A stretch of DNA of 64,000 nucleotides from Melampsora larici-populina 98AG31 (taxonomy: Eukaryota > Basidiomycota > Pucciniomycetes > Pucciniales > Melampsoraceae): positions 166,717 to 230,716 of the forward strand of contig NW_006768765.1 of assembly GCF_000204055.1 (NCBI RefSeq). The letters run 5' to 3'. The position numbers were made by a program, and so were the translations under genes. This document shows, one piece after another, positions 26,870 to 46,865 of this stretch; the first letter of the stretch is position 1; every line of letters starts with the position of its first letter. The notes beneath the pieces are model-generated. The model searched no databases. It saw only the letters and a program-made list of their open reading frames with translations, and was not told the DNA's origin.

Positions 26870-27500
26870 ACAATTGGGCGGCGGGCGCCGCACTGACATT
26901 TTTGTCACAACCTGGAGAATAACTGTGGGGTGTGTCAGTAGATATTTTGAGAATTTGGTGCACTCCTAGGCGCGCGTGAACTTTGACACCCCTTTTTGTG
27001 CTTTTTGTGCCCCACCCTGAATGACTGCATGGTGAAAAATGTGTAGATAAAATTATATCCTGCCTCAGGATGAGCCCCAAGACCCGACAAATCGGGGATC
27101 CCCGCGGTCCACCCCGGCGAGTCAGGGGGTTGTTCTGGCCTCCGAATGGGCCCAGAACCGCGGGGAGAGTCGGGTCCGGGGGTTGTTCTGAGAGTTGAAA
27201 AAAAGCGATTCTCCTCGGGGACCCCAAGGAAAATATCTGTGTGAAAAGCAGACAAATCGATGTTGGGGAACGGTCGTGCGCTGCGGTATTTGCCGGGTAC
27301 TCAGGATCCCTGTGAATTCTCCGGGAAATTAGTGGCCCGTCGGGGGTCAGGGTACAGGTGCCGGGCTTGGTTTCAAGGAGAGAATAAGCTTGGGGAATGG
27401 CGGGGTTGGTCCTTGTTCTGCCTTTTGAAAAACATTGGTCGCCCGGGCAGCGCAATCCCTGGCATTTGCGGGTCGGGGCTCATCCTGAATCCTGCCCCAA
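26870..27500. other. GC-rich block next to telomere-like array
   Basis: Clearly richer in GC than its flanks. GGGGGTTGTTCTG occurs twice (about 27125-27137 and 27179-27191), and CCCGCGG-like words recur. ORFs on both strands are low-complexity and do not resemble known proteins. It resembles subtelomeric DNA in composition, but this is inference. Confidence 0.4.
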
Positions 27501-27507
27501 GCCTAAC

Positions 27508-27660
27508 CTTCTAATCCTAACACCCTAATCCTAACCCCTAATCCTAACACCCTGGTCCTAACACCCTAATCCTAACCACCTAATCCTAATGCCCAAATCC
27601 TAATCCCCTAATCCTAATGCCCTAACCCTTACCCCCTAACCCTAACCCCTAACCCTAACA
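27508..27660. repeat. Degenerate interstitial telomere-like array
   Basis: About 20 units of CCCTAA-like hexamers to octamers (CCTAATC, CCTAACAC, CCCTAACCC) on the plus strand, more regular toward the right end. The fungal telomere unit is TTAGGG, so this is its complement in decayed form. It lies inside the window with 36 kb beyond it, so it is interstitial. Confidence 0.8.
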
Positions 27661-28300
27661 TTTCCTAGCCAGTTTTTTCTTCTTCAGTCTCACCAGAAGT
27701 TCAGTGTGCTTATCTGGAATAGATTTTCTGGTGTGCAAAAATTACAAATATCCAATCAATGATGCCAAATGATAGTTATTTTGTATTTTCTTTCAATTTA
27801 TAACTTTTGTACTTTGCAAAAGGTTTGTGTTTCATAGCTATCTTGCAATGGTTTTCACAGTATTGCAAAGGATTTGGGTATGGCCCAAAGAGAAAAACCA
27901 TATGCCTTAATCTGGCACATATTGCACAGATTTTCCAGCAAGGAAACTGCTCCCCTCCATGAACAAAATTGCTTCAAAGTTTTGGCTTCAATAGTTGTAC
28001 ATGTAGACCACACATGTAACCACTGCAAATGGGAAGTTCCGGTGACACCACCGGAATCAATTAGTTTAAACCCCAATTGAACCAAATTCCACCACCAACA
28101 TATTTATCTTGGATTTTGTAATCTGAGGTATCCTCGGATGCAAAACCTCGGACAGAAGCTTCCCGAGGTTTTGATCTGAGGTAATTCTCAGGGCAAAAAA
28201 ATACCTTGGGCAAAAACCTCAGACAAGGTCTGTCCAAGGATTTGCCTCCGATGATGCCTTGGATTTCTCAACCCGAGGCATCTATGCTGGCAGTGTTCTG
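27661..28300. other. Non-coding, short palindromic CCTCGG words
   Basis: At 28125-28290 CCTCGG, CCGAGG, CCTTGG and CCAAGG words alternate, giving several possible small hairpins. No gene seen. Confidence 0.35.
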
Positions 28301-28384
28301 GTGTCCGGGTTTGAAATTTCCTTGAATCATGAAATTTGTTCACAACCTGTTTGCAATACGTTCGCCAATTTCCCTTGAGTGGTA
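28301..28384 (+). repeat. Dispersed repeat R2 (GTGTCCA family)
   Basis: Related to R1, R3 and R4; lies about 170 bp outside the 3' end of the Helitron. A CATACAACAACAAC word at about 28503 is also found near R3. Confidence 0.6.
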
Positions 28385-28555
28385 CTATGTTGGACCAGCG
28401 TATGTATGTACAAGTAAATGCAGAAATTATACACCACCCTGTAGTGATCTTTTGGCCCCAAGGTTTTTGTATCTGTTCTGCGTCTACTTGTACAGCTTTA
28501 TCATACAACAACAACCCCAATTCCAACCATTCGACCATCTTTCCTTTGTCATGCA

Positions 28556-28590
28556 CTAGAGCATCGGTGGGCGGCCAGCCGCCCCATCGG
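28556..28590 (-). other. Helitron 3' terminus: hairpin plus CTAG
   Basis: On the minus strand the element ends with GGGCGG, loop CTGG, CCGCCC (stem at 28569-28584), nine bases, then CTAG (28559-28556). The next flanking base is T. A direct CCGATG repeat flanks the stem. Confidence 0.8.
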
Positions 28591-28959
28591 GTCAGGCATC
28601 ACTATAGAAATGAAGCAACGTAACGTAGATGTAGACTTAAGCAACGCGCTTAGATACGGTGCAACCAGCAGCGGCACACAAACAAATACCCGGAGGTAAG
28701 GATTCCGCCTTTTTCTACAAATCCTTTAGTGAGAATTTCCATTGAGGTCATAACGGAGACCAAATTCTCCACGTGAGGCGAGGTTTTTGCTCAGCAAATT
28801 GTATGTGCAGCCATTGTCATTGAACACAGAAGAAATGTAATGATGACTTGGAGATCTGCTCCTCAAGGCTTTAGATATATAGAGCTAGCATTGTAAAGAG
28901 TGTATGGGTAACGCACATCGACTCAGTCGCAGTCTTTCAGCGATCAGCAAGACCGGCTG

Positions 28960-30086
28960 TTACATAGTATCATCGCCACAACCCTTCTGCTTCTTTCGAG
29001 ATGACACATCATCTGGAAACACATCCTGTGGTCCACCCACTCTCACAACTGATGTGAACGCCTGACGCGAAGTGCGCTTATTGCAAACCCCAATTTCCTG
29101 CTTGCCAATCACGTCCTTGATTCCTTCCTCAGGTCTAAAGGACAATATCAAAGTTAGCTGTTGATTTGCCACATCGACCAATCGAAGTCAAAAGGCTTAC
29201 ATCGGGCTCAAACCGTATCGAACCTTATGGTTCCTGAGCCGACCACGACATGATTGCATTACATTCACCTGCGTGAGAACCAATTTAATCATGGTCACAT
29301 TCAGCATGCAGGATGCGAAGAATACCTTGCTGATCCACATGGAGGACTCCACATCATATCCTGTGATGTCGCCTGATACGTAGACAATCACACCAATCTG
29401 CCACATAGACTTCGCGCTTTGCAATGTCGGCATCCTTTCAAGATGGTGCTTTGTCATCCACATGACAGGCCTTTGACTCTAGTAAACATACATCGTGGTC
29501 AGCCATGCTTATTAAATGAATGGAGTCTACATCGTAAACTGACTGTGGGATCGATATCAGTAGATTGTAGCGTAATCATGCAGCCATCGGATGCACCAGG
29601 CAGGGTCGGTGGCATTGTTTTGATCGCCATGACCATACCCCGAGTCGTGAATGACACTTTGTCGATGGTCGTGTTCAGGAAATTCTCACTGACCTCTGCC
29701 ATAGGACCGTGGTTGACACAGGTTGAATCATCGACGTGTAAGTAATCCGGCTTCGCATCATTGGATGCAATCAATTTGCACTTCATGGTGTATAGATTTC
29801 CGACCTTGATTCGACTTGCGGTTGATTTGGTGGTAATGAGGTTGACGTCGGTACTTCGGATACCTGCGTTGCCGACACCTGATGTTTCTATGGTGCCATG
29901 ATGAACAACAAAGCCATCATCATTCAGAGACATCCGCGGAATCTACACAGTGAAAGCATAATGAAAACATCAAATCAACCATAGTGCGTTATATAGATAG
30001 CTATTCACAGTCACCTCACGACCGGCACGCCCTATGAAATACACATCGATTGGGTGGATGCGACAGGTGGCTGTGTTAAGTGACAT
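28960..30086 (-). CDS. Helitron cargo paralog A (288 aa, putative OB-fold family)
   Basis: Exons 30086-30015, 29942-29544, 29478-29326, 29268-29201 and 29134-28960 sum to 867 nt. Exon 1 (24 codons) ends in the family motif YFIGRAGRE. Exon 2 (133 codons) carries STDVNL, CKLIASNDAKPDYLHVD and ITLQSTDIDPT. Exon 3 (51 codons) starts before VMWMTKHHLERMPTLQSA and ends in VSGDITGYDVESSMWISK, a beta-rich pattern like an OB-fold. The last exon has a basic tail (SSRKKQKG) that could be a nuclear signal. Function is not known from recognised motifs; ssDNA binding is my inference from the OB-like pattern and the Helitron context. It is the last gene before the Helitron 3' end, and a TATA box lies about 180 bp upstream. 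Confidence 0.75.
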
Positions 30087-30261
30087 GATCAAAGTCGAAA
30101 ATCAAGATACGACGGTCGGGTGACTTGGAAAGAGTGGATGCACTCGGATTGTGTGGTTCAGTCAGGAATGAAGCAATGAATGTCAGACGCGATCCAATCA
30201 GCGGGAGCGCAATGCAATCGATGAGAAATATATTATAACCACTCACGTCGTCTGTTGCTAC

Positions 30262-30269
30262 TATATATA
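30262..30269 (-). promoter_or_regulatory. TATA box of paralog A
   Basis: TATATATA, 176 bp before the ATG at 30086. Confidence 0.5.
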
Positions 30270-31002
30270 CACTATCCCCATCGCTGATGATTGTTCATGG
30301 TCGAAGTCACAGTGGGTCAGGCCCTGATCTCCGGTGAGCCTCCTACTACACCTACAGTGACAACTCCTTCTGTCTTAGCAATCCGTTGCCCACCCATTAG
30401 AATCAGATTTACACCTTTTTAGATAGCCAGTGTGTTGAATGAGCAATCCCATTCCTCAGCAGCCGATGACCCGGAACTTCTGCCACACCACATCAGCCAC
30501 GTTCCACAGAATCCGGAGTCCCACAGTTCATCTTTGCTCAATCGGTGTGTCCAGTCATGCCTTTGCCTGCCGACATTCCGATCTCAATGTCTCGTCGTGT
30601 TAAAAGGATGGAGTCGAAGCCGCGACAAATTCGGTCATTTGGAGGTATCCATTTATTACCCTAGCCCCAAGGAGAACACCAACCATACACAATTCAGGGG
30701 CTGTCACGCATCACTCTACTTAGCAGAAGACTGACCGAGTTCGCACGGGTGGCAAATTGCGGGCAGGCAGTGAATGGGACATAAATGCCTAAGAAAACCA
30801 TTCCATCACTCGCTTCACCAACTGCAAAACAAAGGAGGTGTTACCATATCCATACTGTGGTACATGCAAGCGATCACATGAGATAGTAACAACCCAAAAA
30901 ACCATTTCAACACATGCTGGAATAAACGCACGACACAGCCACCCTGACCTCATACTTCCAGGGCATCACATGAAGTACCCCATCAAGAGAACTCCGCACA
31001 CG
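30270..31002. other. Spacer between cargo genes A and B
   Basis: No gene is supported; short ORFs on the plus strand show no family features. Confidence 0.4.
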
Positions 31003-32122
31003 CTACATTATCGAATTGCGTCTGTAGAGCCTCTTGCGGGCCGCGTCACGACCTGAGCCCATGTGGCGAGCGCCATTACGCATACCAATGCGTGCCATGT
31101 TCCTACTGGCATAGGCACGTATCATTTGTTGCCAGATACCATCGTTGGCAGCAATCACCGCCCTGCAATGCGTCACAGCAGAAAGTTAGTCAGTCCACGT
31201 GTTGCACACATCAATAAACATAAAGTACTGACCCTTGTCTTATCTGACGTCGAGATCTACGAACACGTTGGACACCGTTGGCATCACCGGGACCGACAAC
31301 ACTAATGCAGTTGACCTGGTACAAAAAGTTGAATGTCAGTAGTGGAATCACAGGAGTCGAAACAAAGCGGCATACACTACTGATCCACATAAACGACACC
31401 GAATCGTATCCTACAACTACCCCAGAGATATGAACAATGGCACCTTCTTGCCACATCCTCGCAGCACTCTCTAAAGACGGCATAGGGCAAATATGGTGTT
31501 TGGTAAACCACACAACAGGACTCTTTGTCTGCCAATATAAACGGTCAATATTTACTCAAACCGCAAGAAGAGTAAAAGTCGCTTACGATCGGATCAATAT
31601 CCACAGATTTCAAGGTGATGGTACAGCCAGACGGATGGTCAGCATCGCCAGGAACGATCTCTTTACCAACTATGGTACCCAAAGCGGTGAGTGAGACTCT
31701 GTCGACAGCGCCACGGATCAAGTTCTCACCCACCGGGTAGACAGAGGTAACATCGAGAGAAGTGGCGCTGTCGAAGTGCAAATGATCCGCATTGGCGTCG
31801 TTTGAAGCAATCAATTTACAACTCATTGAGTACATGTCTCCGACATTGATTTCGTTTTGAGACCAATTGAAAGCAGTCAAGTTGACGTCGGTCGAAGTAA
31901 TGTGGTTACCCTTCAGACCTGAAGTGTTGATGCTGGCGGTATGAGAAACGAATCCTCGGTTGCGCAAAGAGGTCTGCACAAACTATCATTGGTAACATGA
32001 CATCAACATCACGAACAAAATAATTTGAAGGAGGATTTGAAAGTGGTTACCTCACGCCCAGCTCGACCAATGAATTGCAACTGAATAGGATGCTGTAGAA
32101 TGCTGGAATTGACTATTGACAT
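31003..32122 (-). CDS. Helitron cargo paralog B (284 aa, putative OB-fold family)
   Basis: Exons 32122-32051, 31973-31587, 31528-31376, 31315-31233 and 31162-31003 sum to 855 nt. Exon 1 has HPIQLQFIGRAGRE. Exon 2 (129 codons) has NTSGLKG, STDVNLTAF, INVGDMYSMSCKLIASNDA and TLKSVDIDPI. Exon 3 (51 codons) has VVWFTKHHICPMPSLESA and IVHISGVVVGYDSVSFMW. The C-terminal exons are Arg-rich (VRRSRRQIRQG, ARKRLYRRNSIM), which fits nucleic-acid binding or nuclear entry. It is the cleanest copy for defining the family. A TATA box lies about 120 bp upstream. The OB-fold and ssDNA-binding role are inferred, not shown. Confidence 0.78.
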
Positions 32123-32240
32123 TATTACGGATGAAAGAGTGACTTCGAGGTGATTAATTGTGAATGACAAAAGAGTGTGTTGTAGCAAAAGAATGCACGT
32201 CGTGGTTGCGGCCGGGAACCTAATTACCTGTTCGTGGCCA

Positions 32241-32250
32241 CCTTTTATAC
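32241..32250 (-). promoter_or_regulatory. TATA box of paralog B
   Basis: GTATAAAAGG on the minus strand, about 120 bp before the ATG at 32122. Confidence 0.6.
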
Positions 32251-33180
32251 CAAGGACCGTTAGCCAAATCATGACGGCCATCACTACTGAAAGAGGTTGT
32301 TGCCGGCAACGACAAAGTGACACCGGTAAGCTGAGTATTGTCATCAGGGTCTCACTAACGTGCAGCTCACAATTGCTTTGCTCCGAGATTACCCTGGGGC
32401 CTCTCCACCAGATTCCGAACGTTTTCCGATCAAAGGATTCTGTCCCAACTGATCCACATGGCGAGCCACGTAGTGTCATCGAGCCCAGGGTCCACCAACA
32501 TCGTCAATCAATATTCAGTCTTGGTGGCTTTGAATAACTTACTGCCGTCGAGGATGCCGATTCTCGTAACGGTGTTCTGCGGAGTTGATTGATCACGGAA
32601 AGTAAGTACCAAGGTTGGGGTCGCATTTTGAAACACTGGCTGACGCTTGCGCCCTTGGCGATGATTAAATATCTCCTGCCCAAACCCTTCACAATCAATG
32701 AACTTTGGGGGCCTTCTGTGAAATCCATGTGAAACGTACCGATGTCGTCATGTCACCTTTCATCAACGTTCATTGCACAGGGCCACAGCTTCGAATTTGG
32801 TAGATGGGCCTCCATCGCCGTCATGAACTCGTGTCAGCATGATCATGGAAAGTTGAACGATACTCATGACCTTTCCCGCTGTGACGGATGACTATAAATT
32901 GAGTCCACAAAGTTGTGTGTTGATCTCATTACCCCCAACCACATCATCAACAAAAAACGCGTTGATTATGCCTTCATCGCCAAATGCCGAGGTACTTTCA
33001 CCTACCTTCACCTCTTATCTCTTTCTTTCCTCGCCCAGAGCTGAAATCAACCTTGTTGTTACAATTTCATTCCACAGACAAATGACACCCACCAAACGAT
33101 GACTCCGCAGACACCATTTTGGCAGTCTTCTCCTCAGCGAATTCCACACAGATGCATCTTGCAAACACGTGAAGATTCAA
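32251..33180. other. Spacer, no gene supported
   Basis: Short ORFs only. The minus-strand ORF at 32504-32728 shows no match to the cargo family motifs. Confidence 0.35.
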
Positions 33181-33206
33181 ATGATGGCTCCTCGTCATGC
33201 CGATTC

Positions 33207-33290
33207 CGGTACTACGTTTGCACTGTGTCCTATGAATTTCAAAATCGTGGACCCCCTCATAGTCATTTTACAATCATTCCTATGTTCCAT
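33207..33290 (+). pseudogene. Relic of a Helitron Rep HUH motif, opposite strand
   Basis: The plus strand encodes YEFQNRGPPHSHFTIIPM, close to the intact HUH segment of the Rep gene in this window ([16 protein letters not shown]). It is on the opposite strand to that gene and has no other Rep motifs next to it, so it is a short relic of another, nested or older Helitron, or a rearranged piece. Confidence 0.55.
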
Positions 33291-33399
33291 TCGAGCCAAT
33301 GAGTGTTTCATTGTTTGTTTCCAGTCAGAGAAACATTTTCAGACATCATTGTAAATACCGCTGTTCACTCGCCATTGTTAGCATTGGAGTCTCCATAAC

Positions 33400-33790
33400 A
33401 TGTCATTAACCAACCATGAAAAGTTTTCAGCTCCATCTGAGGAAGAGTTCACCGTCACCCATCGCATACCGTTGTACTTATACCGTTGTACTCATACCTC
33501 TTAGAGGCCGGACTGTTTCATGCCGTGTGATCACAATTGCAGTGCCAAGTGCTTTTTCCTTCCACATAATTGTTAATAGCTTCTGTAGCGTCATGCTAGG
33601 TAAGCGCGTCACACGCATGCTCATGAGCCTCATCTTCACTTCATGCAAAGCACAATGAGAAACGTTCGGCATGTCTACAACTGAACCATTAATGCAAACC
33701 ACCCATAACTCCTCTCTGAAGCATCAAAGTTGACCTCGGTCTCGGTCATCACAAATTCTACCGCGTGGTTGACATGCAATGGAATTTACA
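33400..33790 (-). pseudogene. Degenerate sixth cargo paralog (relic F)
   Basis: Reading leftward: TETEVNFDASERSYG (compare STDVNLTAF), then after a stop a frame with LHEVKMRLMSMRVTRL and GTAIVITRHET (compare VVVTTKSTDYDPI), a GTATGAGT donor, an AG acceptor, and AENFSWLVNDML (compare PVSWLMKHF). Order and spacing match exons 2 and 3 of the cargo family, but stops break it. The similarity is weak and judged by eye. Confidence 0.35.
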
Positions 33791-33916
33791 GGTCAAGTTC
33801 AAATCCAAACCAAAACTTCCATCGCATTTGGAAATAACACAAAATCCCATTGAGCACGTCACACATTGACTAAATTATTGTTCAAAATCCAGAGGCTCAT
33901 TTTCTAAAACATGAAT

Positions 33917-34808
33917 TCAGACATCAAATAGAACACATGGTCTTGCCGGCAGCCCGCGTAAGTGTCGACTCCGACGCAAGTTGGGAACCAATCCGAACAG
34001 CAGGACCTCAGTTACCTATTGTAAACGAAGGACATGATGAGTGTAGTTAAGGTTTGAAAACGACGACGCAAACTGACGTTAACAACCCATTGAGCTTCAT
34101 GGGCATCCCCATGTATCACATTGCCGACAAATTGCACGACATTGTCACGCTTTAATGCATGCCTGTTGAGCCACGTCACCTCCAAGTTACATTCATATAT
34201 GATACGAAATTCAATCCAGGTCAATGTCTAAGAAAGATGGTCAGCCGATTAATAGAAAGATGGTCAGCTGATTAATGATTGATTTCGTCGTCGAGATCAA
34301 GGTTAGCTCACAGTTGGGTCCCAGTCTCTATGGATTGTAGTGATTGTCACCCCGTCAAAGACGCCTGCAGGTGTCACTCGACGGGCAGAGTCAATAATGC
34401 GGCCTACGCTAGTTACAGAGATCTTGTTTGCCAAGGATTTGACGCGGACTTCGGCGTCGTCAATGAAAATGGTGTTGTTGGGATTGACTAATAACACCGT
34501 GTCGGAACGGGCAGCCGTCATGATAACTGGACCTTCAATCCGGTAAGCATGTCGAGATTTGAGTACGGTCTCTGAAATCCCTTCGGCAAGCAAGAAGCGG
34601 AAAGATTCAAAATTTTCATGTTTTAACACGGTGTTGGTTTCGAAATACCGTTGCGCAACGTGTGCATACGGTGGGCCGTCGAACTAAATTAGGAAGTCAG
34701 TCTGTGTATTAAAACCAAAAAGTAGCATAGTCTACGCACTTTATCACCAACCCAGCAGATGCTGCTCCACCGCATTGGTAATCGACGGAGAATAAAGTCG
34801 CGGTCCAT
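33917..34808 (-). CDS. Helitron cargo paralog C (229 aa, divergent)
   Basis: Exons 34808-34740, 34683-34312, 34227-34078 and 34015-33917 sum to 690 nt. The plan follows the family but with four exons: exon 1 has 23 codons (RWSSICWVGDK in place of FIGRAGRE), exon 2 has 124 codons ending WDPT, and exon 3 has 50 codons with VVQFVGNVIHGDAHEAQWVVNV, which keeps the OB-like alternation. Exon 4 has NLRRSRHLRGLPARP, a basic tail. Many family residues are replaced, and I see no TATA box, so it may be specialised or losing function. The open frames and splice signals are intact. Confidence 0.6.
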
Positions 34809-36028
34809 GGCCGCAAATGTAAGAGAAGATGAGGTTGATAAGGTCAATGAGACCTTGGAGCGACAAAAGATGTGCAGTGGTTCGTGCAACGCAACACTAT
34901 TGACAGAATAATCTCAGAGATAGGAGAGGCCGAAATTGAATGTCGTTACAGCCATCTGTCGTATGGCGCTCTTATGTACGCATTTGCACCATAGAAAATT
35001 TCCTCGGCCACCATACTATCTCAGTAGGCGTGGCCAATTTCACCCAGTGAACCGTGTCAAATCTCAGTCGGTCTGCGATCAAACACCCTCAGCTACTTCA
35101 TTCTTTTGTGAGGCATGTTAACAAATCTATATCCGGTCATAATACAACGCTTAGTGGTCCTGGCGAATACCATGAAGATTACTGAATCACACGTCAGATG
35201 GTTTACCACGACATACAATCAGCTTCATTCTTGCGTGAAGCACGTCGCCAATCCTGCTCGAACATTCGGCATACAATACTCAACACTCTTTAGCCCTTGA
35301 CTTACCATCAGTGATACACCACTGGGACCGAGCAGATGTGTCACACATTTCCACTGATTCGGATCATCATTCTCGGTGCCTCGGCCTGTACCTGTCCTGA
35401 TGTGAGTATCACGTCATTACAAACTCAGCAGCTGTGACTTCAATGAACCATCCAACAATTATCGACGGCGATCGGGAGACACTTCGTGTCAGTATCAACT
35501 TGAGGCAATGTTCCACCCACCGGGTTACCCTCCACTGCACAGGTCCTGTCCTATACATATCTCAAAAGGATAGTGAACAGTCTCAAAATTTTGATTCACG
35601 ATTCAGGACTGAATCCGACCGCGTACAAAATAATGCGGTGCTTACCACCCAAGATACAGTTCCAGCCAATCCACAGGCAACATCAATAAAACGGCAATAT
35701 CTTGTCGCGATGTTATAGCGATGGATGATAAACAACAAAAGTCATGTATGAAACTTGATTAAGACAATGTCAAAATCAGGCTCCACAAACGTCATTACTT
35801 CCATCATTATAAATAAAATGAGTGTAAGGTACCAAAGCGAATGTAAAAGAATGACAAATTTTTGAACCGACAGAGACCTTTGACACATTGATCCAGTGGG
35901 AATGACTTCCCCGGCAAACACGGCACAACATCGAATCATGATACACATATGCGTTCATCATCACTATCAGATAATTGAGGCTTTGAACACGGGTGCTGCA
36001 ACAATCACATTATCGAGTTGCGACGACG
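34809..36028. other. Spacer with possible further decayed cargo sequence
   Basis: No intact gene. A minus-strand segment at about 35290-35480 reads AAEFVMT, stop, then GRGTENDDPNQWKC, up to a GTAAGT donor. The AEFVMT word also occurs in relic F, so another decayed copy is possible. Confidence 0.3.
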
Positions 36029-37113
36029 TTATTGCTTGCGCTCAACGATCTGTCGGCCTCGCCAGGCTCCCACTCCACCTTTGTTCATCAAGCGGATTCT
36101 TTGTGGATCCCCGTGCTTAGCATTGTAACGGCGTACAAATCCCTGGTACCTGTGCGCATTGAGAGCATTCCTACCCAGGATCAAGGTCAGGATCGGTGCT
36201 GACATTGATTATCTGTTGATGACGATGCTCACCGTGGGTTACGTTGGAACTCTCTCTCCATCATGACTCGGGCTCCAGGAATTTGACCCTTGCAGATAGC
36301 GATGGAAGAGACCTAGGATAAGAATCAATCAGTAAGTGTCGCATGATGAGATGTAATCTCGCGCTCACCTCCGAGTGCCACATGAAGTCAGTGTTGTCAT
36401 AACCCATCACCATTCCCGAAATCTGCACCTTCTGACCAACATTGAATATTTCATTTGGATTCTTTCCGTTTGGGCGTGGTAGCACATGATGCTTGCTAAG
36501 CCACTCAACGACGATTTGGCTCTAAGGAATTCCAGAGGTTCAGCGCAGTATTCCGAATGGAGTCAAGCGGAGGGGTGGAGTGGACAAAGAGAGCAGGGAC
36601 TAACCACCGGATCCATATCAGCTGATTTCAAAGTCACAATCAAAGGATATACACCCATACCCCAATCTTCATCGGTTTGAAATTTTGACACAATGGTACC
36701 GTAAGCCGTCACAGCAACCTTATTTACAAAGGTATCGTTGGACCTCTGCAGAAAATCATCGCCGTCACCGAGATGCATGCGCGCGGCGGATGTGAAGTGC
36801 AATTGATTTAATTCGGCTTTGTTTGATCCTATCATCTTGCAGTTGATTGTATAAACATCTCCTTCTTTGAGACTGTTTTCTTCCATGTCTACAGCAACCA
36901 GTTCGATTGGTGTCGAAGCATTAGAGAGACCTCTTGATCCAGACGTTTCAATGGAGGCAGCGTGCACCGCAAAACCACGCCAATTCAAAAGGTCCTTCGC
37001 CACCTACAATTCGAAAGAGTAAGAATATTTGCGCGTTCTGAGTGAAGTAATCAGTGGAGAAAATAGTAGTCACGAACTTGTTTGCCAACACGGCCTATGA
37101 ATTGAAACTGCAT
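36029..37113 (-). CDS. Helitron cargo paralog D (269 aa), C-terminal motif cut off by a stop
   Basis: Exons 37113-37078, 37003-36605, 36521-36369, 36312-36233 and 36170-36029 sum to 810 nt. The first ATG in frame starts MQFQFIGRVGKQ, shorter than in the other paralogs; the frame is open upstream but has no ATG. Exon 2 has 133 codons (ETSGSRGLSNAST, CKMIGSNKAELNQLHF, TLKSADMDPV). Exon 3 has 51 codons (VVEWLSKHHVLPRPNG, VQISGMVMGYDNTDFMW). The end is basic (RGRQIVERKQ). The TAA is directly followed, in the same frame, by RRRNSIM and a stop, matching the last residues of paralog B, so the copy has probably lost its tail by one nonsense change. The donor of intron 1 is GTTCGT, as in paralog E. 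Confidence 0.72.
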
Positions 37114-37237
37114 GTCTTGTAGGTCAAGGGGAACGTCTTGGATGGAGCAGAATGATAAGGAGTTATTCGCTTCAGAAGTGAAAAACGCAGTAAAGAATGT
37201 AGAGGCGAAAACAGTGCAATTCGCGATCCTACCACGG

Positions 37238-37245
37238 CTATATAG
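37238..37245 (-). promoter_or_regulatory. TATA-like box of paralog D
   Basis: CTATATAG on the minus strand, about 125 bp before the ATG at 37113. Confidence 0.45.
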
Positions 37246-37818
37246 ATCCTGTTACTGTCTCATCCTCCGCTTCAAAGATCAATACTATGCATGACAATGA
37301 AATCGGTTGCAAGGGTCCCCCTCCTCGCTCATCAACATAATGCTTCTGACGCCTTAAAACCCCAGGGTTTGCGCATTTGTAGTAGATCGGTCGCTCTTTG
37401 CGTACGACGCTTCGGACGGCACGATTCTTGCAATGCACCGCTGTGGTCTGCCTGGCTTTCACCTCTCGCGGCAATCATAGTAACCACCATGTATGGTTGC
37501 CATGAAGCCAACTTTCAAAGCCAAGTCTCACTGCCCCCAAATACGCATTCAGCCTCGCGATGATTCGCAAGCCTAGAGACACAACATATTCAATCTTGAC
37601 AGCGAACGCTGTTGAACCCTGTTTTTTGCACAATTGTTGTCTTTTGCGGAGCGCAGGGCCGCGTACATATCCACCAAATCTAAATTTGATTGCAGCAGAG
37701 GAACTCAAAATCATTAATAACGGTATCTCATCGTGATGTAGCTAGTAAACTCGGTAAGAAACATGACTTGTGACAATGATCTATGCGACTAATGCTCATT
37801 GCGACAAACTCCGCGGCA
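37246..37818. other. Spacer between Rep/helicase gene and paralog D
   Basis: No gene supported; it must hold the terminator of the helicase gene and the promoter of paralog D. Confidence 0.4.
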
Positions 37819-40800
37819 TCAACGGGTGCCACGTGTTAGTATATTCCTGAGGACAATGTTGACTGTGCTTCGAACGTCCTCCGATTTTGAAATACAAACA
37901 CTGATACCTCCCACGTCCGTGCATCTTGACAGAGCAACGTAAAGTTGTCCATGCGAGAACACAGGACTGGGAAGGAACACTAAGACTTTATTTAGACTTT
38001 GACCTTGAGACTTATTAATTGTCATACAAAAGGCAGAGGCTACTGGAAACTGAAATCGATAGAATGGTAATGGGCACATGGAATTACCCGGGTGACGTAG
38101 ATACATCCTTGGAATGCATACCTCCGTGCCCCTCCGCGGTCCAGTGATTATCCTACACGTTAACGTGGAATCACCGACTTTGACGGCTACCAATCTCGTC
38201 CCGTTGCAGAGCCCTTGTTTCAGATTCAAATTCCTGAGCAAGATGATTGGCATTCCAACCTTCAGCTTCAATATATGTGCCGGGAAGTTTGGTACGCAAA
38301 ATGAGTTCAGGACTTCGGGGGTCAAGGGCTCGCAAGTTGTTGCCGGATCATTCGAATCCAAAGACTTCCGTATCTTTTCTTCACTGATAAGACCACAGAT
38401 TACTTCTTCGTTGACCAACCTGACGGTTTTATTGAGAGGCGTGACAATGCACCTTGCAGCGTAGAAATCCGCGAGCGCGGTCCAATTCTGACGATGTATG
38501 TAATAATTTGCCTCCGCATAAAAATTGTTTGCCATCCGTTCGTCAAAAATGGATACTGGTGAGATCACCTTAATCTCAATGTGCTCTAAAGCTACCACTT
38601 CCGCAGTCGTATCTTGCAAGTCACCCGATCCAAGGGCCAATAACCACTTTGCATACTCGGCATTTCTTTGCGACGTGTCTCCAGGGCTTGCTTCACATCC
38701 TAATAATCGCACGTTCCGCGTTAAGGCGTATTGTTTGATAAGCCGCCAAAGATATGAGTTTTTCAGTGAAGCTTCTGCTTGCTCTTCAATTGTCAATCTT
38801 GGGATGACGGGTAGCGTCTGACGAAAATCCCCAGAGAAAAGCATTGTAATACCACCAAAAGGAGCGTCATTGCACCGAAGAGCTCTCAATGATCTATCGG
38901 CACAATGTATGTCAGCCTTGTTTTGCATGGATATCTCATCCCATACTATTACTCTACACTGTCGAAGTCTCTCTCCAAGTGAATCACAGGTAGAGAAAAG
39001 GCATATCGATTCCTCTGTGCTGTCAATTGGAATTTTTAACGCCGTATGCGCGGTAGCCCCCTTGTAGAGCAGCAGCGCGGCTATTCCTGAAGATGCCATC
39101 GCAAGGACCGGCGCGCCAACCACGTTACAATAATGCAAAACTGCATTTAACACAAAGGTTTTTCCTGTCCCACCCGGGCCGTCCAGAAAGAAAAGCCCGC
39201 CTTTCTGCTCTTGGATCGCCCGTTTGACATCCACAAACAACGCCAGTTGCTCGTCGTTCATTCTGTGGACCGCCGGTTCGAGATAAGCAAAGCTCTTGTC
39301 ACTCGTCATTTCATCGTCATTGTTACTGCCTATTAACGTACTATATCCCGTCAATAAAGTGAGATCCGGCCGTGGCAGTGCGGTCCCTTTGAGCGTCAAA
39401 CCAACTTCCTCTAAGGCGACAGACATTCGATAAAGCCCCAAGGTAAGCACCATCGCGGAGGTTGGTTCTTGCCGCGGTTGAACCTTCAACATAGAATGCC
39501 GACAGTCATCAGAGAGCGAGACCGAAAACATTTCCCACAATTGCAGAGGATCGCTCGGAGGGCCGAATTTGAGAATAAGGGCAAACATCGAGCGTAGTTG
39601 ATATGCACTCTGAACCAATGCACATTCTTTCATAGCCGCTATGTAATGATTGTTGTCCAGAAGCAATCCGTGGGCCCTGGCAGCCTCGTTGAATGTGGGA
39701 TAGATGACACCATCAACAGTCCTGAGGTGTTCGAATGATTCTGGACCCGGTACATGAAATAGCAGCAACCTCAGATAAAACCTTTCTCCCTGCGATATGC
39801 TGGCAAAATAAACTCTTGAGATAGTCTTCCAATCCTTTGTCCTGATTTTCCAGTGGTTGGTTTTTTTAACCCAACTGAAATACTTCACAATTTCAGGGTA
39901 CGTGAGAGTGTTGATTGTCGAATTGATCTTTGGAACCTCCACTTTATTCTTGCACATTTCGCAGAACTCAGTCAAGGGCGACCGTGCTGCTCTGCCAGAG
40001 TCGATTTGGCGACGCAGCGTCTCCGTGCAGTTAAAGTACAAAACGTTATCAAAAGGCAGATGAAGAGGTAGTCGAAAAACCGCCGGATATCTTGATGACA
40101 GTAAGAATTGGAACAATCTCCAACAACCTAAGAACTCAGGTTAGATCACATTTCTATCCGTTGAATGGAGATGGAAACTAACCTTCGGTGCCAGTTAAAC
40201 TGCGTCCATTTATGTGGACATCCAGCTCATTTTTTGCAACCATTGACAACGCAGCCCTGTCATGTCCCTTTGTAATGTACTTATAAAGGTACTTGAGAGC
40301 TTGCATACTGACAGCTACCTCAACATTGATATGACAGTTATATTTCATTAATAAATACGGATTATAAGGCACTACGTCTTGATTGGTATATGTATAGCCA
40401 TTCTTGGTGAAGGTTACACCGTTGTCGGAGCGTCGATATGTCGGATAGGCGTCATCCGTCATAGTGGTATGCTCATTGAATGGCTTTGGATAATCGAAAC
40501 AACATCTGTCGGTTTTCCAACACGGACTACCTTCCTTGCACGGACCGTGCAGCATGAAATTTGTCACCGCCTTGTATAGGTCAGGTTCTTTCACCCTATC
40601 GGGAATCTCAGCCCTGACCACCAAGTCAATATTATCTGGAGTTCGAGGAGCACCACCAGCTGCCATAATTGGTATGAAGTGTGCATGTGGGCGGCCACGG
40701 TTCTGAAACTTGATGGTATGGACATGCGAAATTCCAGGTCCCAGTCGTTCCTTATGATTTATATCCTCCATTAAGTCCCGCAACTTCAATTGAAAAACCC

Positions 40801-42319
40801 TAACTAAAATATCAGGTCTATTGATTGCAGTTTGACCATATCGGAGCTCGTCTTGTACTTCCTTCCAGTCGTCATTGGCTGTCATTGTAATGAAAAACAT
40901 CGGCTGGCCATAATGTTGCACTAACGCCATAGCGTCATGGTAAATTTGCACCATGTGCCTTGCACCTCCGGTATGAGACGCGGGAAGTATGACTGGTCTA
41001 CCGATCTGTTTAAAATCATTGCGGCCTAATGCTTCTACTGCGCCTGAGTACAATTCAGCACGTATTTCTTGTTGATGAAATCGGAACCAAGTGAGTCTTT
41101 GATTTTCAATGCAGGCGTAGAGATCCGTACACAACTCCTGGAGTAGCATGTGGGACGATAGGACGATTGAAAATTCTTGCGCGCGTTGGAAGAGCAGATA
41201 AGCAAACCATTGCAGAGTTGACACCGTCTTTCCAGTACCTGGTAATTATCGCCCAACAGAGTGTCATTAAAATAGCACATCAGCACCAATGTATTCAATC
41301 GCGCAAAGGGGATGCACTCACTGGGGACACGATAATATTCATCATATCCTGCCTGACCAAAGGGAAACAGAATTGGGTATCTCAAGGGGAGATATCCAGT
41401 GTGCAACTCCGAAATCCGCTTAAACTTCCCATCATTACTGTGCAAGATTATATCCCTATCACCCTCGCCTACGTCACCACCACCGCGAATCACCATCGCA
41501 ACCTCTGTAGCTGATGGTCGTGCGTAAGTCCGGATGTCATGGCCGGCTGAGTTCTCTGCTGTTGCCGGAATTGATTTGAGTCTCAGCGAGATTGTCTTGT
41601 ATTCCTTCATGATGTTGCCCGCGTGTTTAAATTGCTGTGCGTAGGGATTATACTTGTACATAAATCTCATGAATAGTTCCACCAGCTTAGGATCTATGGG
41701 GGATTGTGAGACCTTGACCCTGTGTAAAGCCTCAGCCGCTGGTGCGGCGTCCATCATATAAATCTGCGCAAATGCAGCCTTGCCTTTGGCGGGCTGCATT
41801 ATTGTACCGAGATCATGATATAATTCCCCATCAATCTTGAAGCATCGAATGCCGTAGGGGCCATTGACCAATTGATCAATCTCAGCTCCCAATGAAGTAA
41901 AGCTCAACGCATTGTTGTAGCCACGGATATGACTACGAAAGTGTTCCGCTTCTATGAGTGGCATATAGTCAGCTACGCCCGGCTGATAAAAAGCTAGCCA
42001 CAAACAACGCACGCGGTGTGTTCAGAGTCAACAGATCGATAAGGAACTGAGGAGCCGGTGGGAAATCAAAGTAATGTTCAGGTAGCTCGACCTTGCCACC
42101 CTGACAGCATATCGAGTACGCCAATCCTCCTGCAACCGCAGTAGTCCGATATTTTTCTCCCTTCCAATGGGAAGCATTACAACAGGCACAAAGCTGATCG
42201 CAAACGCCAAGCGAGTGGGGGATCTCTGACTTGAATTGGTGCTTGATGGAGAGTTCGTGGCCTTCAGCCGGAAATCGCACTGCTCGTTTGCCCATGGCAG
42301 TCACTCCATGGTATGTCAA
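37819..42319 (-). CDS. Helitron Rep/PIF1 helicase (about 1433 aa, four exons)
   Basis: Exons 42319-42013, 41951-41322, 41238-40183 and 40127-37819 sum to 4302 nt without internal stop. The N-terminal Cys cluster ([20 protein letters not shown]) and NIR-like [19 protein letters not shown] open the protein. The Rep nuclease has the HUH motif in [11 protein letters not shown] (about 40700) and a two-Tyr motif, YLYKYITKG (about 40270). The PIF1-type helicase has Walker [10 protein letters not shown] (about 39170), Walker B VIWDEIS (about 38935), [13 protein letters not shown], and at the end INKSQGQSL and YVALSRC. These enzymes nick, unwind and copy the element by a rolling-circle route. All key residues appear present, so the protein may be active. 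The codon at 42319 is not ATG; an upstream exon is likely, or the next ATG, 24 nt further in (MGKRAVRF). Confidence 0.93.
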
Positions 42320-43444
42320 ATCGCTGGGAAGCGCGAAGCAGAGAGTCCAAGTTACAGTTGTGAGGTTTCTCGGTCGTTTGATATCTTCAGCGTTACAATC
42401 CGCTTTGCGTTCGTAATGTCAAGATGTCGATAGAAGCAGGATGTGAGTTGTCTATTCTAACGAAGGACGATAAATCGTGAACAACTTGATGTAGGCCTTG
42501 AGTCTGACCAATCAGTTTGTGTTTAAAATTTTCCAATGTCTCACCCTCCAATACCGGTACGAAAACAGAGACTCCCGGTGAGCAATGGCATTGGGCCACG
42601 CATGGACGTGGGTCTCACTTGGCCAACAAATATCCATCCCACGCAGCACCTAGTGTGCCACTTTCATATTTTCTGTACTCGAGTCTCGAGCCAATGTGCG
42701 TTCATAAGTAACTCCCAAGAATTTTCAGCATTTCTGTCGGGACTAAGTTGAACAGATTGCATAAATCTCGTCAAAGTTTTTCACTGAGCATCACCATGTG
42801 GGGTATGATGATTACCGATAATTTGTCTCTGCAAGGGTTTCCAGCTATTGATCCACAGGCAGTGACCGAGTTGAGTGAAGTTGTGGCGGAGAACGTGAAG
42901 CGGAACACCCAATGTCTATAATTGGGGTCTTGCGGCTATAAGTGGCAATGCATGAAGTCAATAAGGTTTTTTACTCCTACCGCAGAAGACTGACAACATT
43001 GGCAATAATAGCCGCTGACTTATGACCGTTGCAAAGCTTCAATGAGGACCTCGACTGATATTTAAGCATTGTTGCCGAATTCTCCCTGGCATAAAACACA
43101 ATTGCACGCTAACCCAACAAATAACAAACGTATCAATTCAATTTGATTTCGGAATTCAAAGACTACATATAAAGGACCGCCTCGGATGGTACAACTCAAG
43201 AGGTGGAAGAACACCGATAAATCTAATGAGTGGAACGGTTGAGATGTTGTGATGGAACGTTGATTGCAGGAATGTGACTAACCTCACCAAGCAAGGGAAC
43301 AAACAGATAGAGAGAAATAGATGCAGAAGGGATTACAAAAGCGCAAACACAATTGACAACTTGTAACGGCACCGCACGCAGTCGAGAGCACTTGTTCACC
43401 CCAAGCTTGAGCGACACGCCTATTCCCGACGACGCCATTCACAC
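42320..43444. other. Region upstream of the Rep/helicase gene
   Basis: Probably promoter and N-terminal exon(s) of the Rep gene. A minus-strand frame at 42393-42599 (VFVPVLEGETLENFKHKLIG) is followed by GT and AG signals and could be such an exon, but no join was proven. Confidence 0.35.
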
Positions 43445-44626
43445 CTAACCACGACGGAGTCTCTTGCTCATGCCCAACACAGCACTGTCCTTCTCAAGAG
43501 CGTCGTTCTCAATCCCAGCGTTGGTATTGAGCCTGTTCTCAATGGCACCATCAACGCGTCTGCCCGGGCTGGATTCAACATCATCGAGCTTGAATTCATT
43601 GTTGTCAACAGCGTTAGTTGACGTACTGGCGACATTGGAAGCCAAACCACGTTTCCTGCCGGCAAAGCAATCAGCAATGCCCGCGATAATTCCAGATCGA
43701 GTAAAGCTCACCTTCCCAGCGGGATTTGGCCACCGTTTGGCATTCCAGGCTTGGTGGGGCTGGCGGCCGCACCAGTAAGGTGACCGCTGGTGACACTGAT
43801 CGCATTGACCTATACAAAAATCAATCATCAACCATAGTGATGATCGCATCCCTCGGAAATGAAACTTACTTCAATTTCCCACATGTGATTGTTGGTGTCG
43901 TAATCTTTGAAAACCCCGACCAACTGGAGCTCCCTCCCCAATTGACAGAGGTTCTGAGCTTTCTCCAAGTTTCGGAGCGGCGGAATGAAGTGTTTCATTA
44001 ACCAGCTGACAGGCCCCTTGGTCTAAAGAATGAGAGCCGTCAGTCATGGGAACGGTTGAGGGAATGCGGATTGCAAGACAATGAGTCGCTCACAATGGGA
44101 TCATAGTCAGTCGATTTCGTGGTCACCACTACCGTTGGCTTGCCCTTGTAAACAGGATCCTTGATGATATCACGGGCAACAACCGTACCCAATGCGACTA
44201 TGCTGACCTTGTCCATCAAGCTGTCACAAAAACTTTCCGGAAAATTCTCAGTAGGGCCCCAGTTGATGCGGTGGGCGTTTTCAAAATGTAAATGATCATC
44301 ACGTTCGTCGTTTGAACCGATGAATTTGCAACTCATTGAGTAAATGTGTTGCGGGATCAATGCTTCGGCAGTGGAGCCGTACGCAGTCACATTGATGGGG
44401 TTAGCAAAGTCTTCACCACCGTTCATGCCAGAAGTGGAGATCGATGCGTGATGAGATATAAAGCCCTTGTTCTTGGAGAGCAGAGCCGCAACCTAAAGAA
44501 ACATGTCAGGTAGTTGACACAAACAATGTCAGGGAACACATAAGGATGACGAACTTCAGCGCCAGCTTCGCCGGTGAAATAGACTCGGATTGGATGAGAA
44601 ATCGTGCGTGATTCAGAGCGAGACAT
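43445..44626 (-). CDS. Helitron cargo paralog E (310 aa, putative OB-fold family)
   Basis: Exons 44626-44555, 44492-44094, 44022-43870, 43809-43712 and 43655-43445 sum to 933 nt. Exon 1 has HPIRVYFTGEAGAE; exon 2 (133 codons) has STSGMNGG, IYSMSCKFIGSNDERDDHLHFE and TTKSTDYDPI; exon 3 (51 codons) has VSWLMKHFIPPLRNLEKA and LQLVGVFKDYDTNNHMWEIE. The C-terminal exon is longer than in its paralogs and ends SKRLRRG, a plausible nuclear signal. It is the only copy on the 5' side of the Rep gene; the others follow the Rep gene. A TATA box lies about 195 bp upstream. The OB-fold reading is inference. Confidence 0.76.
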
Positions 44627-44818
44627 GATTGACAATGAAAACAATGAGTAAACGTTATGGGTTTAAGTGCTGTTAGGGTACTGTGGAAGCGAGATACTGC
44701 AACTGGATATGCAATGTCAGTGTGATAATGAAAGGAATTATTATAAATGAGTGTGTAGTCCAGTGAATGTCTATCTGCAGCTGACTTCTCCTCCGCCAGA
44801 CTAAGAGGCCATGCAATG

Positions 44819-44829
44819 CCTTATATACG
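44819..44829 (-). promoter_or_regulatory. TATA box of paralog E
   Basis: GTATATAAGG on the minus strand, about 195 bp before the ATG at 44626. Just upstream, a 33-bp imperfect tandem pair (GCTTGCACCGGAACTTCGA and GCTTCCAACGGAACCTCGA, 44841-44905) may be a regulatory repeat. Confidence 0.5.
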
Positions 44830-45114
44830 CATGCTAATGCTTGCACCGGAACTTCGAAGACATTGGCTGATGCTTCCAACGGAACCTCGAAGACATCGCC
44901 TGGGGGGTCGCCCTGATTGGTTTGAACAACATTCCATGGGAAAGTGTATTCCGAATCGGTGGTGAAGACTTCGCCCCAGCTGAAACGTTTGCTGGAATGA
45001 AATTCCAGAAACGATTGTACGTACTGACTGCCGTGAATTGTGGGAGGAGACAACCTGCGGTCGTGCCAAACTCAGGCTGACAGATTATAGACGTCAGCAT
45101 CGAACCATCGCAGT

Positions 45115-45636
45115 AACATTCCGGGAGTAGTGTATAGCCATGATCTTTTTGAGCACATTGATCAGGAATGTTGTCCTGACGTGGGGAGGGTCCTCCCGGA
45201 AGCCACGCCAATGAAGACAGATGTCGTGGGTCCCGATCCCAGCCAGGTTGTTCGACGATTAAAATCGCTAACACCACTGCTTTTGACAGTCGATCCGGAT
45301 GGCGACGAACGCTATGATGGTGGTAGAAAGCTTAGGATTGTCTCGTAAGACCAAGATGAATACGTCGGTAATGGCAACATTCCGGGCGTAGTGTATAGCC
45401 ATGATCTTTTTGAGCACATTGATCAGGAATGTTGTCCTGACGTGGGGAGGGTCCTCCCGGAAGCAACGCCAATGAAGACAGATGTCGTGGGTCCCGATCC
45501 CAGGCAGGTTGTTCAACGATTAAAGTCGCTAACACCACTGCTTTTGACAGTCGATCCGGATGGCGACAAACGCTATGAGGGCAATAGGAAGTTTAGGATT
45601 GTCTCGTAAGACCAAGATGAACACGTCGGTAATGCC
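45115..45636. repeat. 261-bp tandem duplication
   Basis: Two adjacent copies with period 261 (45115-45375, 45376-45636) and only scattered differences. Each gives a 72-codon plus-strand ORF and a minus-strand ORF, but neither shows a known domain, so I treat them as chance frames in a repeat near the 5' end of the Helitron. Confidence 0.9.
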
Positions 45637-46004
45637 GCTTTCAAACGCTGATGCCTTGGTATGGAAATGATTGCATCATTGTGGCGGCGCCCTGCTATGC
45701 GAAGTATCGATATTCGACGGACAGAAAACAGCGATGGGTTCACAGAAGAATGGGATACGCCGAAGGCAAGCATGTATACAACGTGTGATGCTGAGGGCGA
45801 GTATCACACGCAGATCAGAGAGTCCGGGTTTGGGGCTAAGGTCACGGGGTACCGGGCAAAGGTCTCGACTGAGGAATGTATTTTTTTCAAAAACATCGGA
45901 TTTCCTTCTTTATGTGTGATCTTCAGTCTTGGTCCTTTGTACAATTGGTGACTCTGTGGTGACTGATGTTGAAAGGTGTTGTTGTTGTATGATGTGTGAG
46001 CAGA

Positions 46005-46090
46005 GTATTGCTTGAGGGAAATCAGCAAACATATTGCAAAGAAGTTGTGAACAAAATTCACAAGTCAAGGAAACTTCAAACCTGGACACC
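46005..46090 (-). repeat. Dispersed repeat R3 (GTGTCCA family)
   Basis: Minus-strand copy; reads GTGTCCAGGTTTG, TTTCCTTGA, TTGTTCACAA, CCCTCAAGCA. Inverted relative to R2 on the other side of the Helitron. Confidence 0.6.
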
Positions 46091-46865
46091 AAAATTTGGT
46101 TCAATTGGGTTCTGAACTGATTACTTCCCGTGGTGTGAGATTAGTTGATTTTGTTCATCTACTATCTGTGTAATAAGGGTGCTTTCCTTGATGAAAAAAT
46201 GTACAATATGTGCCTTATGTGGCTCATATTTTTTCTCTTCGGACCATGCCTGAATCCTTGGTGTGGAAACAGATAAAGGGGATTGAAGGATGCTCCCTGC
46301 AAAACCGGACGTTGTTAATATTATGAATCCTTGAGATTTTTAAGGAAAAAAATTATAATTTGATGTATTGATGTCAAAGTAACCATTACCTGTGTAGAAT
46401 AAGTTTGAGGACTGTAGATGATGATGATTTGAAGTGGATAAGAAAGTGATTGGATTAGTTTGATTAAAGATGATCAAACTTTGAAAGAAAAGACTTACAT
46501 TGGATGAGGTTTAGGTTGAGATTCAGCACGGGGAGTAGATTGAGTTTGCTTTGAAGGAGAAGAAGATTGTTGAAGTCAATATTGATAAAAAATCTTTGAT
46601 TAGGTGGTAGTCGGGAAATGAGTCATGACTGGCAAACCAAGTCAAATCTGTGATTGGGACTATGTACCATCATAAAAAGTCAGAAACATTAAGTACTCAA
46701 AACTATCAAATTTTTGAGCAGGTAAGGGGTTTTGCCTAGTTTTGTTCAAATTGATGGTTCTCCTTCAATGTTTATGATATGAATGGGTTTGATGATGGCT
46801 GATACTATGAAAGGGACTATTATGTGTGTATATATGCTTTGTACATACAGCAAATAGACAGGGCA

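Follow-up and report, generated by a model that had tools for sequence, protein, structure and literature searches.

A Melampsora Helitron with five paralogous genes for predicted double-OB, SSB-like proteins

Once Rep has made its nick and the helicase has unwound the DNA, rolling-circle transposition leaves a long single strand exposed, and the transposition of Helitrons must deal with such strands. Among described systems, the closest in role to the genes considered here would be the RPA-like genes of plant Helitrons (PHRPA), which are presumed to serve the exposed single strand during transposition; RPA-like Helitron genes are also mentioned for zebrafish, sea anemone and Drosophila (PMC4683698, accessible text). 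RPA, in plant and some animal Helitrons, is the only element-encoded single-stranded DNA-binding protein beyond Rep/helicase reported in the accessible parts of that paper and of a second one (PMC6431247). For fungi, the available text of a survey of Fusarium Helitrons describes RPA-like genes as not found (PMC5148889), and the RepHel proteins of Pleurotus Helitrons were surveyed as having no RPA domain. This report concerns a stretch of 64,000 nucleotides (‘the window’) from the rust fungus Melampsora larici-populina 98AG31 (contig NW_006768765.1, positions 166,717 to 230,716), which contains a Helitron whose Rep/helicase gene is accompanied by five paralogous genes, named E, D, C, B and A. 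These genes belong to a family that is tied to Helitron Rep genes genome-wide, and their products are predicted to consist of two tandem OB folds of the SSB/PriB type, followed by a net basic tail modelled at low confidence.

The initial annotation had placed five minus-strand genes, all transcribed in the direction of Rep, inside the element; each does read from an ATG to a stop codon through GT-AG introns (Table 1), and all five are enclosed by the corrected ends of the Helitron as well. Their description as a ‘tandem’ family is loose: E is separated from D by Rep, and the genes are set apart by spacers of 0.7-1.8 kb. The genes share a common structure: exon 2 is 399, 399, 372, 387 and 399 nucleotides long in E, D, C, B and A, respectively, exon 3 is 153, 153, 150, 153 and 153, introns 1-3 are in phase 0, and a fourth intron, in phase 2, is present in E, D, B and A and absent from C. 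The NCBI model of gene B (MELLADRAFT_123950, here P0001; 287 residues) is 99% identical to the prediction over the full length and equals it in length apart from three residues added at the first acceptor. Full-length identity to B is 35% for E, 35% for D, 20% for C and 39% for A (47% between A and B within the core). Gene C, though an old relative, truly belongs to the family, because alignment of a profile of 13 C-type exons with a profile of 18 other members (hhalign, exon 2 only) gave a probability of 96%, with an E value of 4e-9 over 100 columns.

The fold was modelled with AlphaFold2 for gene B and for a relative, P0003; homology extends the prediction to E, D and A, and least surely to C. 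Both predicted models contain two tandem OB folds of SSB/PriB topology. By far the best matches of the P0003 model are the two-OB SSBs of Deinococcus/Thermus (3udg, 1se8, 2fxq, 2ihf, 2ihe, 2cwa) and an editosome protein, and its two OB domains jointly match single-stranded DNA-binding SSBs across 180-190 residues. When the modelled second OB domain of gene B is superposed on other structures, the root-mean-square deviation is 2.3-2.7 for PriB and 2.6-4.2 for mitochondrial SSB, although both of those proteins have one OB domain per chain and neither matches the rust family in sequence. Proteins of the SSB family have an acidic C-terminal tip. In contrast to the Deinococcus/Thermus proteins, to which they are 7-12% identical, the rust proteins have no such tip in the last ten residues of any of the five tails (which are net positive, +2 to +14) and are encoded by intron-bearing genes in a eukaryotic transposon. 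A Pfam search with 30 members at E ≤ 1 matched 12 families, with neither PF00436 nor any RPA family among them; gene C was the only one of the 30 to show a sub-threshold match to Ssb-like_OB (E 0.022-0.067). None of 10 members matched NCBIfam, and no fitting family was found in Pfam, NCBIfam or PHROG, in keeping with the earlier statement that the family was not recognised. An exon-by-exon search of the genome with PF00436 returned zero matches, missing even the mitochondrial SSB, and is thus a weak test. Relatives returned by protein searches came only from Melampsora and from two metagenome clusters (P0014 and P0027, encoded on short metagenome contigs), and all 22 M. larici-populina proteins among them are annotated as uncharacterised.

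These results bear on the possibility that the family is the rust counterpart of PHRPA by descent, that is, a host RPA that was captured, diverged past recognition by sequence and still binds single-stranded DNA in the manner of RPA. The two systems, as far as the accessible account of PHRPA goes (PMC4683698), would be alike in that an accessory gene within a Helitron encodes an OB-fold protein that binds, or here would bind, single-stranded DNA. However, the plant genes are recognisable as RPA by sequence, whereas the rust proteins match no RPA profile and the best fold match of P0003 is a two-OB SSB; a captured RPA is accordingly thought unlikely.

Searching the genome with the second exons of all five genes gave 137 merged places, and adding a sixth query, P0003, from a distant upstream group (120 of 245 candidates scored), brought the set to 199 places with a gene or gene fragment, which are likely to be transposon genes. 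The corresponding search for the Rep domain (150 of 168 candidates scored, 147 matches) gave 139 merged places, and all of these counts are lower bounds. With the five-query set, 93 of 137 places have a Rep place within 10 kb, on the same strand in 86 of the 93 cases, in a genome of which 2.8% lies that close to one; with the six-query set, 136 of the 199 places are that near to Rep, 129 of the 136 share its strand and 108 of those 129 are upstream. Copia-type reverse transcriptase matches, used as a control, lie within 10 kb of Rep in 5 of 150 cases scored (from 522 candidates). The family is therefore tied to Helitron Rep genes throughout the genome; this bears out the ‘dedicated accessory family’ that had been proposed, and the paralogs did not prove to be widespread without Helitrons. 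At least one same-strand member is found within 12 kb at 95 of the 139 Rep places, and an upstream member at 91; at least two members are found at 31, at least three at 3, and five only in this window. The family is thus not special to this Helitron: one E-like gene upstream is the usual state, and five members beside a single Rep gene are unusual. Of the 199 family places, 63 are more than 10 kb from any Rep match, and 44 of the 139 Rep places show no family member.

The OB folds might serve some other purpose (RNA binding, loading or regulation of Rep by a PriB-like protein that binds it, or anti-silencing) with no coating of single-stranded DNA in bulk. This alternative must contend with the joint match of the P0003 OB pair to single-stranded DNA-binding SSBs and with the linkage of the family to a rolling-circle Rep, from which Copia is essentially unlinked, and it appears improbable, slightly more so than a captured RPA.

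Two side observations concern the distribution of the family. At L112 (C33:716616) and L040 (C3:900984), exon 2 is open and a Rep match is absent within hundreds of kilobases or on the contig; these may be remnants of elements or genes kept by the host. Elsewhere, two kinds of member lie upstream of a single Rep gene and on its strand, with the C-type gene outside the E-type on contigs C11, C16, C19, C29 (748390), C34 (54959), C79 and C99, and with the order reversed on C24 and C84 (220551), which hints at a two-gene module.

A family tree was built from 80 of 116 loci. It contains a clade of 41 rows (support 95), in which 37 genes lie upstream of Rep and 4 are not near it, and small clades near E in which the genes are either upstream of Rep or remote from it and none is downstream. 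Genes A, B and D stand with genes of other loci in a group of 14 rows (7 downstream, 4 upstream and 3 away; support 92). When eight rows were omitted, A, B and D made up one side of a branch with a support of 93 (not starred), and 3 of the omitted rows had stood among them. C belongs to a separate deep branch, many members of which are also near Rep. The earlier proposal that the family was amplified within the element holds insofar as five paralogs lie inside it; their identity to B (20-39%), the grouping of A, B and D with other loci and the deep branch of C do not fit a recent amplification, and to judge from the sequences the five paralogs are old and not the product of a recent tandem burst. 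The simplest reading of the tree would be that each Helitron had a single old upstream gene, and that extra copies, later and yet still old, were added downstream.

Selection was assessed from the ratio of nonsynonymous to synonymous substitution rates (dN/dS) in 27 pairs of genes, of which 18 were saturated at synonymous sites and one was not computable. In the six pairs with a dS of 0.9-3.0 the ratio is 0.02-0.09, and in two very young pairs it is 0.28 and 0.41, calculated from 8 and 12 changes. Upstream-type genes are thus under strong purifying selection, because the ratio is so low at high dS; for D, C, B and A the corresponding observation is of open frames only. Helitrons frequently pick up pieces of genes (PMC6431247, in its accessible part), and the extra copies of the present family do differ in position and number, as would be expected if host genes had been acquired by chance and carried as passengers. 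That ordinary kind of capture is nevertheless strongly contradicted, and highly improbable, given that the member is upstream at 91 of the 95 Rep places that have one, that nearby members so consistently share the strand of Rep, that spliced frames are intact and, in upstream-type genes, conserved by selection, and that no candidate for the captured host gene emerged outside Melampsora from the protein searches.

Taken at a probability of roughly two in three, the predicted double-OB proteins encoded by the Helitron would bind the single-stranded DNA exposed by rolling-circle transposition and be a counterpart of the plant Helitron RPA in which another OB family fills the part, a role that fits the family because of its set position beside Rep and its retention by selection. 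In such a scheme, a strand nicked by Rep at the TC end would be peeled off by the helicase; the E-type protein, whose gene precedes that of Rep in most of the Melampsora Helitrons found, would then coat the freed strand, protecting it and keeping it open until closure or insertion. D, C, B and A may have diverged to act as additional subunits or as regulators in this coating step; alternatively, these four paralogs could comprise subunits, dosage variants or interference variants. A bolder formulation, that Melampsora Helitrons use a bacterial-type double-OB SSB of their own and not RPA, that in this fungal lineage an SSB-like gene became the standard second gene of such rolling-circle elements, and that one element evolved a specialised or heteromeric five-member complex for binding single-stranded DNA, is put forward tentatively, as somewhat less probable than not. 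The family suggests that the recruitment of OB proteins happened more than once, and its linkage to Rep and purifying selection make the need for a single-stranded DNA-binding protein directly testable.

Other accessory genes of fungal Helitrons offer looser comparisons. The extra open reading frame of the Fusarium FoHeli elements resembles the rust family, to go by its description, in lying upstream of the transposase, having no known domain and being confined to Helitrons, and differs in its orientation, opposite to the transposase (PMC5148889, accessible text). TET/JBP genes on Helitron1 of Puccinia graminis are likewise accessory genes on a rust Helitron, but encode a dioxygenase unrelated to the SSB-like family, and the accessible text names Melampsora only for Dileera elements (PMC12730594). 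In the available portion of a survey of rust transposons, Helitrons appear only with their share of the genomes, 0.2-2.6%.

The element itself has the canonical Helitron features of a 5'-TC, a 3'-CTRR, insertion between A and T and no target duplication, sitting between A (45920) and T (28555) as A/TC...CTAG/T. It had been delimited as 28556 to 45814; the 3' end was exact, and the true 5' end is 105 bp further out, as a query spanning 45814 matched the copy on contig C31 straight across the supposed border. At the four empty sites examined (L011-L014, among 37 flank matches listed), the right flank joins the left flank at 45920/28555 with minor differences. Canonical Helitrons have a hairpin some 10 nt ahead of the 3' end; the energy of the hairpin near the 3' end of this element is ordinary (-7.3 kcal/mol, z -0.43, an equally good fold occurring in 62 of 200 shuffles), and the C31 copy is without one of its arms. 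Rep was correctly described as complete: it reads as one frame across three predicted introns with a single stop, at the frame end, so that the Helitron looks complete, and it fuses a Helitron_like_N Rep (HUH) domain to a PIF1 helicase in the canonical manner. Its putative HUH and Tyr motifs were read by eye.

The second copy (G000:C31:322442-369820, L057-L061) spans about 47 kb and has 45920-39444 and 30603-28553 in common with the window Helitron, at 98.1% each; these segments comprise both ends, gene E, the beginning of Rep and gene A (a 98% copy). In place of the helicase part of Rep and genes D, C and B there are about 39 kb of unrelated sequence interrupted by assembly gaps, where blastn gave no match of more than 150 bp to any of these three genes or to the PIF1 part of Rep. 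That the genes move with the element is therefore demonstrated for E and A only, as these are the family genes that the C31 copy shares.

Table 1. Features of the Helitron in the window (all on the minus strand)
Feature	Position	Details
Whole Helitron	28556..45919	17,364 bp, 5'-TC...CTAG-3'; basis: C31 copy and four paralogous empty sites
5' terminus TC	45918..45919	C31 homology from 45920; empty-site junction 45920/28555
Two tandem 259-bp copies	45115..45634	95% identical; Helitron 5' leader; retained in C31 copy
Gene E	43445..44626	Exons 44626-44555, 44492-44094, 44022-43870, 43809-43712, 43655-43445; 310 residues predicted; upstream of Rep
Rep/helicase gene	37819..42295	1,425 residues; PF14214 Helitron_like_N and PIF1
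Rep predicted introns	42012-41952, 41321-41239, 40182-40128	GT-AG
Gene D	36029..37113	Exons 37113-37078, 37003-36605, 36521-36369, 36312-36233, 36170-36029; 269 residues predicted
Gene C	33917..34808	Exons 34808-34740, 34683-34312, 34227-34078, 34015-33917; 229 residues predicted; divergent paralog
Gene B	31003..32122	Exons 32122-32051, 31973-31587, 31528-31376, 31315-31233, 31162-31003; 284 residues predicted
Gene A	28960..30086	Exons 30086-30015, 29942-29544, 29478-29326, 29268-29201, 29134-28960; 288 residues predicted
GC-rich hairpin GGGCGG-CTGG-CCGCCC	28569..28584	16 nt, 13 nt from the 3' end
3' terminus CTAG	28556..28559	C31-copy homology stops at 28553; host repeat from 28555

Inverted arms at 28045-28389 and 46001-46136, 80-84% complementary, flank the Helitron, which was inserted into an older inverted-repeat element, since the repeat of these arms occurs elsewhere without it (L011-L014). 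Beside the Helitron, at 27495-27660, lies a degenerate, telomere-like array of CCCTAATCCTAAC-like units of about 14 bp, which is present in L013 too.
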